Below, piece by piece: positions 5,077 to 8,905 of a stretch of DNA of 49,535 nucleotides. The stretch covers positions 1-49,535 of the forward strand of contig CAMQXY010000010.1 in the NCBI GenBank assembly GCA_947039005.1, in the 5' to 3' direction. The stretch is from an uncultured Photobacterium sp. GTDB taxonomy: Bacteria > Pseudomonadota > Gammaproteobacteria > Enterobacterales > Vibrionaceae. The notes beneath the pieces are model-generated. The model saw only the letters and a program-made list of their open reading frames with translations. It ran no database searches and had not been told where the DNA came from. Position 1 is the stretch's first letter. Every line of letters begins with the position of its first letter. The position numbers and the translations under genes are program-made.

Positions 5077-6366
5077 TTATAAGAAAATAATCTTCGCAAG
5101 AAATAATGCTGAAATAACCCAAACACTGATATTTACTTCACGTCCCTTGCCACTTAATGCTTTAACTACCGCAAAAGTAATGAAACCAAGACCAATACCT
5201 TCTGCAATCGAGTACGTTAAAGGCATCAGCAAACACACAACCACGACAGGCGCTGCTTCTGTTAAATCTCGCCAATCAATAGACACCAAACCTGACATCA
5301 TTAAAATGGCAACATAAAATAACGCACCAGCAGTAGCATATACCGGTACCATGCCAGCCAATGGGGCAAAAAATAACGCTAATAAGAATAACATGCCAAC
5401 CGTAACGGCAGTTAGACCTGTACGACCGCCAACTGCGACACCCGACACACTCTCAACAAAAGATGTGGTATTTGAAGTGCCCAGTAATGCACCAATCGAA
5501 GTGGCTGTACTATCCGCTAATAGTGCGCGGTTTAAACGCGGTAATTTACCGTCTTCACCAATCAAGTTTGCTTTGGTCGCAACACCGACTAATGTGCCCG
5601 CGGTATCAAACAAATCCACAAACAAAAACGCAAACACAATTGAAATTAAGCCAACTTCCATTGCTCCTGAAAAATCAAGCTGCATGAAAGTCGGGGCAAT
5701 GCTTGGTGGCATTGACATAATGCCGTTGTAATCCACTTCGCCAGCAATAATACTGATGACTGTGACCACTAAAATCGCAATCAACACTGCCGCTTTAAAG
5801 CCACGCTGAACTAACGCAATAGTAAGAAAGAAACCTAACGCAGCCATAATTGCAGAGAAACTGGTTAAATCACCCGCCGTCACTAACGTTGCGGGACTCG
5901 CTACGACAATGCCTGATGTTTGCAAAGCGATAAATGCTAGAAATAAACCGATACCGGCTGAAATACCAATACGTAATGAATGCGGAATTGCGTTGATGAT
6001 CCACTCACGCACTCGCATGACACTGAGTGCAATAAAGCATAAGCCAGATAAGAACACCGCTGCTAATGCTACTTGCCATGTATGTCCCATACCCAACACA
6101 ACGGTATAAGTGAAAAATGCGTTAAGTCCCATGCCTGGCGCTTGTGCCACTGGATAATTAGCATAAAAACCCATCACAAAGCAGCCAATCATTGCCGCTA
6201 AACAGGTAGCAACAAACACTGCTCCTTGGTCCATTCCTGTGCTGGCTAGCATAGTGGGGTTTACAAAAATAATATAAGCCATTGTCAGGAAAGTAGTTAC
6301 ACCAGCCATAATTTCAGTGCGTACTGTTGTGCCATGTTCTTTGAGTTTAAATAACTTTTCTAGCAT
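5077..6366 (-). CDS. Purine (adenine-type) permease, AdeP/PurP family
   Basis: Inner-membrane proton-coupled nucleobase transporter of the NCS2/AzgA group. The start (MLEKLFKLKEHGTTVRTE) and motifs VNPTMLAS, APGMGLNAFFTY, DLFDTAGTL and GGRTGLTAVTVG most resemble E. coli AdeP (PurP), so adenine is the likeliest substrate; guanine or hypoxanthine cannot be excluded. There are 12-14 hydrophobic segments over 429 residues. I chose the ATG at 6366, which has AAGGA ten bases upstream; the frame extends to 6474, but that part lies across the promoter. A PurR-like box lies between promoter and gene, and gpt follows. Confidence 0.93.
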   Translation of the reverse strand: MLEKLFKLKEHGTTVRTEIMAGVTTFLTMAYIIFVNPTMLASTGMDQGAVFVATCLAAMIGCFVMGFYANYPVAQAPGMGLNAFFTYTVVLGMGHTWQVALAAVFLSGLCFIALSVMRVREWIINAIPHSLRIGISAGIGLFLAFIALQTSGIVVASPATLVTAGDLTSFSAIMAALGFFLTIALVQRGFKAAVLIAILVVTVISIIAGEVDYNGIMSMPPSIAPTFMQLDFSGAMEVGLISIVFAFLFVDLFDTAGTLVGVATKANLIGEDGKLPRLNRALLADSTATSIGALLGTSNTTSFVESVSGVAVGGRTGLTAVTVGMLFLLALFFAPLAGMVPVYATAGALFYVAILMMSGLVSIDWRDLTEAAPVVVVCLLMPLTYSIAEGIGLGFITFAVVKALSGKGREVNISVWVISALFLAKIIFL

Positions 6367-6418
6367 GTTTCTCGGTTCCTTAGAGAGACGCAATAAAGTA
6401 ACAAACAACGTTAAGAAA

Positions 6419-6683: not shown

Positions 6684-6716
6684 AAAAAAAACGCCACTTC
6701 AAATAAGAAGTGGCGG
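6684..6716 (-). terminator. Strong terminator of the 29-codon unit
   Basis: Nine perfect base pairs, CGCCACTTC with GAAGTGGCG, enclose a six-base loop, and eight U follow on the minus strand. It ends the small transcript about 205 bp before the permease promoter, so the ORF is not a leader peptide of the permease. Confidence 0.92.
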
Positions 6717-6821
6717 CAGAATGTTGCGGATAGCAATATGTGTTATCCAGATATTCTTAATTTAAGGGGGTAAACAAACTTACATTTGTCTTGTTGTAAT
6801 CAACAAAACAATAAAATCTAA

Positions 6822-6911
6822 TTAGTAACGATAAGGCGATGGATAATGGAAGTTGCTAGTATAAACAGCACGATTATTCCAAAAATGTGTTACAGAAGAA
6901 AAAATTTTCAT
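6822..6911 (-). CDS. Small protein of 29 residues, function unknown
   Basis: The ORF reads MKIFSSVTHFWNNRAVYTSN at the start and ends HYPSPYRY; it is rich in aromatic residues and has no signal peptide or membrane segment. AAGGTGA lies five bases before the ATG, a strong ribosome-binding site. Its own promoter, long structured leader and terminator argue that it is translated. It resembles in size and setting VcdP of V. cholerae, a 29-residue protein from a CRP-controlled dual-function RNA reported to bind citrate synthase; I recall the length but cannot compare sequences here. No other family is recognised. Confidence 0.7.
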   Translation of the reverse strand: MKIFSSVTHFWNNRAVYTSNFHYPSPYRY

Positions 6912-7060
6912 TTTAATCACCTTAATCATAAGCACACCAACGTTATACGTGGTGGGTTGCCATCATGGCTCACTTATTCTCAGTTCCGTGGAGGCGATGT
7001 CTCGGGTTCATCCTGAACATATCGTGTTAATTATTATGCCAATCAATCTGGCCTGACTAA

Positions 7061-7089
7061 ACTATAACCAAAACGGAATAAAATTACAA
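7061..7089 (-). promoter_or_regulatory. Promoter of the 29-codon unit
   Basis: TTGTAA (7089-7084) and TATAGT (7066-7061) are separated by exactly 17 bases on the minus strand. The start of transcription would be near 7054. Confidence 0.6.
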
Positions 7090-7096
7090 TCTTTTC

Positions 7097-7112
7097 TTTT
7101 AACTGGATCACA
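7097..7112 (-). promoter_or_regulatory. Possible CRP site before the 29-codon unit
   Basis: TGTGATCCAGTTAAAA on the minus strand matches 12 of 16 positions of the CRP consensus, with a perfect left half. Its centre is about 50 bases before the predicted start of transcription. This is between the usual class I and class II positions, so I hold it as a candidate only. Confidence 0.4.
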
Positions 7113-7444: not shown

Positions 7445-8905
7445 GTGTCTGAAATTACTCAACTATCACCAAAAGCTGTTTGGCATTTCTTTGACCAGAT
7501 TTGTTCAATCCCTCATCCCTCTAAATATGAAGAGCAACTAGCACAATACATTGTGTCGTTTGCACAAGCTGAAGGGCTAGATGTTCGTCGTGATAACACG
7601 GGTAACGTTATTATTAAAAAGCCAGCAACTGCTGGTATGGAAAACCGTAAAGGTGTTGTACTTCAAGCGCACATTGATATGGTGCCACAAAAAAATGAAG
7701 ACACAGTACACGACTTTACGCTAGATCCAATTCTGCCATTTATTGATGGTGAATGGGTAACAGCAACAGGCACTACGCTAGGTGCTGATAACGGCATGGG
7801 CATGGCGACTTGTCTGGCTATTCTAGCGGCTAAAGACATCGAACATGGTCCATTAGAAGTCTTATTGACCATCGATGAAGAAACAGGCATGACAGGTGCT
7901 TTTGGTTTGGAAGCAGGCTGGCTTGAGGGTGATATTCTATTGAATACTGACTCTGAGCAAGAAGGCGAAGTTTACATGGGTTGCGCAGGCGGTGTGGATG
8001 TTGCTTTGACCGTTGATATTCAACGCGAAGCTGTTCCGGCGGAACATCAACCGATTAAATTAGTTGTTAAAGGCCTAAAAGGCGGTCACTCAGGCTGTGA
8101 TATTCATACTGGTCGTGGTAACGCGAATAAAATAATGGCGCGTTTCTTAGTGGGTCATGCTAATGAGCTTGATTTACGTATCAACAATTTCACTGGTGGT
8201 AGCTTACGTAATGCCCTACCACGTGAAGCAAGTGTTGTTGCAACATTACCAGCGGCAAATATCGATAAGCTTAATGCGTTATTTGCTGAATACCAAACAA
8301 TGGTTAAAGCTGAATTAGGCCATGTTGAAACTGACATTACCTTATTTACTGAAGCATGTGCACAGCCTAGCGATGTTATAGTACTGGCTGACCAAACACG
8401 TTTAATGCATACGTTAAATGTTTGTCCTAACGGTGTTATTCGCATGAGCGATGATATTGAAGGCGTAGTAGAAACATCATTAAACATGGGTGTAATCACT
8501 ACTGAAACAAATACAGTAACGATCCTATGTCTGATTCGTTCATTGATCGATTCTGGTCGTAGCTACGTTGAAGGTATGTTGCAATCATTAGCGGCACTTA
8601 CTGGCGCACAGTGTGTTTCATCTGGCGCATACCCAGGTTGGAAACCTGATGCTGATTCTGAAATCATGCAAGTATTCCGTGATACCTACCAGCAGATGTA
8701 TGGTAATAAACCTAACATCATGGTGATCCACGCAGGTCTTGAGTGTGGTCTATTTAAAGAACCGTACCCAGAAATGGACATGTTATCATTTGGTCCTACA
8801 ATCAAATTCCCACATTCTCCAGATGAGAAAGTGAAAATTGATACGGTACAAATGTTCTGGGATCAAATGCTAGCGATTCTAAAAAATATTCCCGTTAAAA
8901 AATAA
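7445..8905 (+). CDS. pepD: Aminoacyl-histidine dipeptidase (peptidase D)
   Basis: Cytoplasmic M20-family zinc dipeptidase that splits Xaa-His dipeptides such as carnosine and other unblocked dipeptides. Metal-binding and catalytic motifs are visible: LQAHIDMVPQ, LGADNGMGMA and TIDEETGMTG, then the dimerisation part GLKGGHSGCDIH and a late HAGLECG and FPHSPDE. The GTG at 7445 has AAGGAAGG upstream, and the resulting 486 residues equal the usual family length. It is a single-gene unit with its own terminator, divergent from the small RNA unit. Confidence 0.97.
   Translation: MSEITQLSPKAVWHFFDQICSIPHPSKYEEQLAQYIVSFAQAEGLDVRRDNTGNVIIKKPATAGMENRKGVVLQAHIDMVPQKNEDTVHDFTLDPILPFIDGEWVTATGTTLGADNGMGMATCLAILAAKDIEHGPLEVLLTIDEETGMTGAFGLEAGWLEGDILLNTDSEQEGEVYMGCAGGVDVALTVDIQREAVPAEHQPIKLVVKGLKGGHSGCDIHTGRGNANKIMARFLVGHANELDLRINNFTGGSLRNALPREASVVATLPAANIDKLNALFAEYQTMVKAELGHVETDITLFTEACAQPSDVIVLADQTRLMHTLNVCPNGVIRMSDDIEGVVETSLNMGVITTETNTVTILCLIRSLIDSGRSYVEGMLQSLAALTGAQCVSSGAYPGWKPDADSEIMQVFRDTYQQMYGNKPNIMVIHAGLECGLFKEPYPEMDMLSFGPTIKFPHSPDEKVKIDTVQMFWDQMLAILKNIPVKK

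Follow-up and report, generated by a model that had tools for sequence, protein, structure and literature searches.

VcdRP (Vcr082) of Vibrio cholerae is an Hfq-bound RNA of about 300 nt that is processed by RNase E and encodes a small protein, VcdP, which binds and activates hexameric citrate synthase, GltA (PMC8672173). In the published numbering of this 306-nt transcript, the open reading frame (ORF) extends from 104 to 193, and a conserved stretch from 223 to 232 ends in CCCC; four consecutive cytosines are required in the seed, and residues 15 to 18 are mutated in the inactive protein VcdP* (PMC8672173). The gene sits between vc2278 and vc2279, and CRP represses it by way of a site that lies before the -35 element (PMC8672173). 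The main text of the same paper gives seven species with VcdRP, all of them Vibrio, and reports joint conservation of seed and ORF for every species tested; Photobacterium is absent from that main text (PMC8672173).

The window analyzed here is the whole stretch of 49,535 nucleotides from an uncultured bacterium, a Photobacterium close to P. phosphoreum. A first-pass annotation had singled out a compact minus-strand unit between pepD and a purine permease gene, which it read as a possible VcdRP homologue or, failing that, as a new small-protein system. A unit with a promoter-to-terminator layout is indeed present at this place (Table 1), in the gene order pepD, unit, and permease-gpt-frsA, with the unit on the permease strand. 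We take 5077..6366 to be a purine permease gene from its label in that annotation and from family features, and vc2279 of V. cholerae to be pepD. The same two genes flank the unit in all 28 named loci (27 from Photobacterium and one from a Vibrio sp.), the nearest of which, in P. phosphoreum JCM 21184 (L039), has an ORF 97% identical to that of the window. The published coordinates could be matched to another Vibrionaceae locus, L079, whose small protein is MNKGLSSVMFWNQHSVYTGNFAYPRSFGY. When its ATG is placed at 104, the ORF closes with a stop at 193, CCCC occupies 229 to 232, and the T run ends at 306; the ATG and the stop follow from this setting and the 29-codon ORF, while the CCCC and the T-run end are independent agreements. 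This numbering puts +1 8 nt past the -10 element. The end of L081 was off by one base from the published coordinates, and L080 and L096 fitted more poorly. Since L079 fits the V. cholerae coordinates and is also flanked by pepD and the permease, the window unit and published VcdRP belong to one family. The homology first suggested for the unit is thus borne out by gene order, ORF, promoter with CRP half-site, C-rich seed, terminator and the spacing of L079, and orthology is secure on gene order, layout, and the conservation of protein and leader.

Table 1. Position of the vcdRP unit, its parts and its neighbors in the window
Feature	Position	Strand	Remarks
vcdRP unit	6684-7112	-	CRP-like site, promoter, leader, 29-codon ORF, C-rich seed, hairpin, terminator
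CRP-like site TGTGATCCAGTTAAAA	7097..7112	-	Good left half, degenerate right half
Sigma-70-type promoter	7061..7089	-	-35 TTGTAA 7089-7084, 17-bp spacer, -10 TATAGT 7066-7061
5' leader	6912..7054	-	About 143 nt, from the putative start
H1 GUUC-AGGAU-GAAC	7006..7018	-	GGA in hairpin loop; stem varies among relatives
AUCGCCU	6992..6998	-	Complementary to the vcdP Shine-Dalgarno region AGGUGAU
H2 CUCCACGGAACUGAG	6979..6993	-	Near-invariant; GGA in loop of 3-bp CUC/GAG stem
Shine-Dalgarno region AAGGTGAT	6916..6923	-	
vcdP ORF MKIFSSVTHFWNNRAVYTSNFHYPSPYRY	6822..6911	-	29 codons plus stop
VcdR seed UGUUUACCCCC	6766..6776	-	Contains CCCCC
Hairpin between seed and terminator (GAAU...AUUC)	6719..6756	-	
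Rho-independent terminator	6684..6717	-	9-bp stem plus T8, ends at 6684
Second exact H2 copy CUCUAAGGAACCGAG	6371..6385	-	Overlaps permease Shine-Dalgarno; ends four bases before ATG 6366
Purine permease (presumed)	5077..6366	-	ATG at 6366; downstream neighbor, about 317 nt past terminator
pepD	7445..8905	+	Divergent upstream neighbor; name from first-pass annotation

The signals for transcription are best judged across relatives. The promoter described for the unit, with its 17-bp spacer, is present but by itself not above chance, promoter-like sites between 6300 and 7500 numbering 4 against 5.6 expected from shuffles. A loose promoter pattern was dropped as stand-alone evidence, as it fits all 108 distinct related units yet still 42 of the 108 after shuffling. 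TGTGA precedes a -35-like hexamer in 104 of these 108 units (13 in shuffles), and TGTGA, -35 and -10 follow one another in order in 90 (0.3 in shuffles). Of the proposed CRP-like site, the left half, TGTGA, is conserved at the right distance; the whole site fits 8 of 10 consensus bases, with 3 of 5 in the right half, and is weak alone because the window holds 21 such matches against 28.6 by chance. At least 4 of the 5 right-half bases are found in 37 of the 108 units. Transcription would start near 7054, as judged from the -10 spacing of L079. At the other end, the strong terminator first described was recovered, with 3 terminator-like sites in the tested stretch against 0.7 expected.

The 29-codon ORF with its ribosome-binding site also held up, and conservation of the ORF is far above chance. 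It was matched, with no internal stops, in 34 of 35 other genomes of the genus (E values from 4e-15 to 8e-4), the sole miss being a genome that is 74% complete (G012). Neither the protein nor the leader was matched in that genome or in G155, a complete genome of the same genus, for which loss of the unit is possible. When the search with the 29-residue protein was widened to the Vibrionaceae, a 16-row profile found vcdP in 193 of 247 genomes and 9 of 13 genera. The listed matches outside the genus mostly span residues 4-8 to 29, the N-terminus being different, and the C-terminus reads PYRY in the clade of the window versus FGY elsewhere. Residues 15 to 18, those altered in VcdP*, are A/S-V-Y-T in 10 of the 16 profile rows, the window's among them. 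The genome of the window carries one citrate synthase gene, and its VIFAM stretch is kept; by E. coli citrate synthase numbering, this stretch presumably holds F383. Three further vcdP matches were taken as chance: a second one in the same genome (G000:C7; 41% identity, internal stop), one in G048 (internal stop), and one in G025:C12 (E 0.09).

Downstream of the ORF, the window carries a seed with complementarity to two start regions of its own genome, those of nagE and ptsH, and can pair with both. Pairing was computed for 11 start sites in ten PTS-related loci, a set without treB and without a ptsG-like start, whose 5' end is missing from the assembly. The strongest duplex, at -19.4 kcal/mol, formed with AGGGGGAAC before the start of nagE (L115, which lies above the NCBIfam cut-off for a nag-type IIBC gene and whose start was taken as GTG), followed by GGGGUGAAAU of ptsH (L123) at -12.6 kcal/mol. 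The other start sites gave -11.4 (a second nag-type gene, with two start choices), -9.5, -6.8, -5.7, -4.8, -4.2, -3.8 and -3.4. As a background, the starts of 39 ORFs in the window averaged -7.9 (sd 2.5; lowest -14.8), and two of them were below ptsH. CCCC lies within 115 nt past the stop in 89 of the 108 distinct units. It is absent from the remaining 19, which comprise 10 units of a second family, f2; L035, L139, L092, L151 and the first half of L149; and four units with only CCC (L039, L086, L172 and L173). The published joint conservation of seed and ORF thus no longer holds with wider sampling, and the VcdR seed is separable because units with leader and ORF occur without it. The seed region of P. 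phosphoreum JCM 21184 has just CCC, versus CCCCC in the window.

The structured leader of about 140 nt claimed at first was upheld as conserved sequence with local covariation but not as a globally stable fold. Folding of the whole leader was no better than that of shuffles (z -0.5) and was dropped as proof of structure. By conservation, the leader module is nonetheless real: distinct leaders have a block of about 50 nt in common, within which two hairpins, H1 and H2, each present GGA in the loop. All 62 of the distinct cores have an H1 stem of 4 bp or more with GGA in its loop, whereas letter shuffles keeping one GGA gave a mean of 20.1 (sd 3.7; largest 30). Its stem takes forms that include GCUC/GAGC, GUUC/GAAC, GUUC/GAGC, GCAC/GUGC and GUUUA/UAAAC, and its second pair is C-G in 80, U-A in 19 and U-G in 4 of the 108 units, the other five being unplaced by the script, although the core count had shown the hairpin in three of them. 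Mapped onto an 86-row tree of the permease, this pair changes 8 times. A sign test of covariation along the tree had too few events, with one supported pair for the anti-Shine-Dalgarno pairing and three supported independent pairs for H1 (five over all branches); among the three for H1 the partner followed in 2 on average, was unchanged in 1 and went the opposite way in 0. H2 follows CUCCANGGAAC[CU]GAG and is near-invariant over 15 nt in 55 alignment rows, with GGA invariant, and its stem therefore gets no support from covariation. A third GGA-loop hairpin occurs in 9 of the 108 units. An upstream ORF in the leader (AUGAGCCCG...) was dropped, as the H1-H2 spacing differs among relatives by one base, no Shine-Dalgarno sequence is properly spaced before its start, and the conserved letters are those of the RNA element.

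The leader also contains AUCGCCU, which is complementary to the vcdP Shine-Dalgarno region. In the 97 of 108 units that fit both patterns, the variable position pairs C with G in 92, U with A in 5 (falling in two lineages), and is mismatched in 0; of the 11 units outside the pattern, some pair weakly. The mean duplex was -9.0 versus -8.3 (sd 0.09) when partners were swapped among units, and 0 of 100 swaps were as low, although such swaps ignore kinship. Counting against the pairing, it is present in the best single-sequence fold of only 31 of the 108 units.

A sequence-only model of the leader matched 204 of 247 Vibrionaceae genomes and 11 of 13 genera. When the two lists were compared, 11 genomes had the leader but no protein match at these cut-offs, and 10 of these have an ORF of 27 to 32 residues after the leader. 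At the level of the order, 29 of 197 genomes were matched: 12 Vibrionaceae, 11 of family f2, 2 of family f11, and 4 weakly (G285, G321, G392 and G401; E 0.002-0.007). In all 11 f2 loci (L161-L171), the leader precedes a 27-residue ORF, MKNSVPATPVFGDLYNTKFTYPRHLGY and variants, and neither pepD nor the permease was found within the 5.5 kb examined; the C-rich seed was absent from the 10 distinct units. A profile comparison of this ORF with VcdP gave a probability of 75% (E 2.5e-5) over 15 C-terminal columns. In f11, the unit adjoins pepD and gpt-frsA in 2 of 2 loci; as in f2, the small ORF behind the leader is divergent. Among the weak matches, the core pattern was absent at that of G401. At the match of G285 (L174; E 0.0023), a 40-codon ORF and a terminator follow, possibly a remote relative. 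A third leader match in G171 (L154, E 0.004) was rejected, there being no such unit at the locus.

Copies of the unit also vary in composition. Two Photobacterium genomes carry stand-alone second vcdP copies with a leader (L035 in G029:C12 and L139 in G171:C472); these run into an immediate terminator without a C-rich seed, and their N-terminus is Vibrio-like. In L149 (G193:C1, approximately 732.9-733.2 kb), leader and vcdP occur twice in tandem, followed by one C-rich seed and one terminator. In G212:C17 (L150 1505-1800), an early in-frame stop interrupts vcdP and the GGA of H2 is gone, while the C-rich seed and the terminator are still present; in this one case, the leader decays with the ORF and not with the seed.

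A further copy of H2 lies at the purine permease. Across the 3.69-Mb genome, the pattern CTCNANGGAAYYGAG is matched exactly at two places, in the vcdRP leader and at the permease, and at a third with one mismatch; reversed as a control, it gave 4 matches at no more than one mismatch. The form CUC-AAGGA-GAG is found at the permease start in 32 of 32 loci of the genus with a parsable permease start (L001-L037), and no H2 copy was found at the permease in the Vibrio-type rows listed. Its GGA overlaps the permease Shine-Dalgarno sequence, as would be expected for the site of a translational repressor. Duplication, with a shared origin of the two copies, is an equally possible account of it.

Taken together, the unit is very probably a Photobacterium vcdRP gene with the roles known from V. 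cholerae, and a gating role for its leader is less sure. As in V. cholerae, cAMP-CRP would repress vcdRP, and the RNA would therefore be made when favored sugars are plentiful. The processed 3' part, VcdR, would act together with Hfq and base-pair through UUUACCCCC with the ribosome-binding sites of PTS messages, lowering sugar uptake, and the 29-residue VcdP would bind and activate citrate synthase. We propose in addition a translational gate for VcdP in the leader, with CsrA as a possible mediator: AUCGCCU could mask the ribosome-binding site of vcdP, and the adjacent pair of GGA hairpins looks like the binding site of a regulator. CsrA appears the likeliest partner; its gene is present in the genome of the window, and in the Csr RNAs of V. 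cholerae, GGA in the loops of stem-loops forms the CsrA sites (PMC7858070). The available text of PMC11633198 has no CsrA binding data for VcdRP RNA, nor did the literature searched, as far as it was accessible, give any for the leader; the sole paper with both VcdRP and CsrA in that literature was a Rickettsia study. A wider picture can be drawn only tentatively, in which VcdRP would be a three-part regulator: the leader, with its two GGA hairpins and anti-Shine-Dalgarno strand, would be its oldest part, found in at least three families and switching the small protein through an RNA-binding protein, most likely CsrA; the seed would be separable, and in Photobacterium, where the same hairpin sits on the permease ribosome-binding site, one factor would co-regulate both genes. 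Such a regulator would tie the carbon circuits of CRP, at transcription, and Csr, at translation, together.

The leader might instead be read without CsrA, by another RNA-binding protein or by the ribosome using AAGGA as a stand-by site. The strictness of H2 speaks for such a reader, as does the restriction of its exact copies to the vcdRP leader and the permease, for CsrA sites are usually looser in sequence. In H1, however, the sequence varies while GGA stays in the hairpin loop, which fits a binder of GGA hairpins, and we consider a reader other than CsrA somewhat unlikely. Less probable still is a leader that does not gate VcdP at all and acts as a CsrA titrant or as a CsrA-stabilized end protected from RNase E, in either case connecting VcdRP to the Csr system. 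The presence of the H1 hairpin in every distinct core, well beyond shuffles, the occasional third GGA hairpin, and the GGA stem-loops described for V. cholerae Csr RNAs (PMC7858070) agree with a sponge, but there are just two or three sites, and the conservation of H2 is much stricter than binding of CsrA requires. In the loci read, moreover, the leader accompanies the ORF and persists in units that have no seed, and L150, with its broken ORF, has lost the GGA of H2 yet keeps seed and terminator. A leader that tracks the ORF and not the seed points to control of VcdP.

The position of the unit, on the permease strand with a terminator in between, and the copy of H2 over the ribosome-binding site of the permease could also suggest that it attenuates transcription of the permease operon or encodes a leader peptide for it. 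This is very improbable: the unit has its own promoter and seed, the Vibrio-type rows listed keep vcdRP without an H2 copy at the permease, and in f2 it is away from pepD and the permease in 11 of 11 loci. The initial statement that it is no leader peptide for a downstream gene stands. That the unit merely resembles VcdRP and represents an unrelated small-protein system, as the match to other genera mainly over residues 4-8 to 29 and the silence of the main text of PMC8672173 on Photobacterium might allow, is scarcely conceivable given the synteny, the conserved leader, the shared order of ORF, seed and terminator, and matches across 9 of the family's 13 genera; this alternative is not needed.

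We retain the Photobacterium vcdRP gene as our reading and set it beside described systems. Its core is the known VcdRP, and the conserved, control-like leader element is so far undiscussed in the published text available: the main text of PMC8672173 contains neither "csra" nor "leader," although its authors speak of conserved elements and their alignment figure may show the block (PMC8672173). A literature search combining VcdRP, Photobacterium and dual-function found no paper. Rfam gave no match between 5500 and 8500 of the window, and in L079, L161 and L173 it gave two sub-threshold matches, both in another stretch of L079.

CsrA-bound leaders and Csr RNAs share with the unit the GGA in hairpin loops, and the H2 copy over the permease Shine-Dalgarno sequence is of the same kind; they differ in that the conservation of H2 spans 15 nt and extends well past GGA. 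The conserved leader raises possible translational control of VcdP by CsrA or another RNA-binding protein. Spot 42 and AzuCR are likewise CRP-repressed RNAs of carbon control (PMC8672173), and the comparison with them, made by Rfam only, gave no match in the window stretch. SgrST of enterobacteria works in a similar way, as the VcdRP authors noted: a single RNA carries a small ORF and, farther downstream, a seed for the repression of PTS messages. The target of SgrT is PtsG, however, and that of VcdP is GltA, and SgrR is an activator whereas CRP represses (PMC8672173). The closest system remains VcdRP of V. cholerae, which the window unit resembles in place, promoter with CRP half-site, leader, 29-residue ORF, C-rich seed and terminator. 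It differs in genus, in its PYRY C-terminus, in the length of the leader (approximately 143 versus 103 nt) and, with its putative start, of the transcript (approximately 371 versus 306 nt), and in the seed, UGUUUACCCCC in the window versus UGUUCACCCC in L079. As the first-pass annotation had anticipated for the case of homology, a dual-function RNA of seven Vibrio species is now extended to Photobacterium and to most Vibrionaceae genomes searched, and its seed and small protein do not always travel together, as seedless units of leader and ORF are found among second copies, in some genera and in f2.
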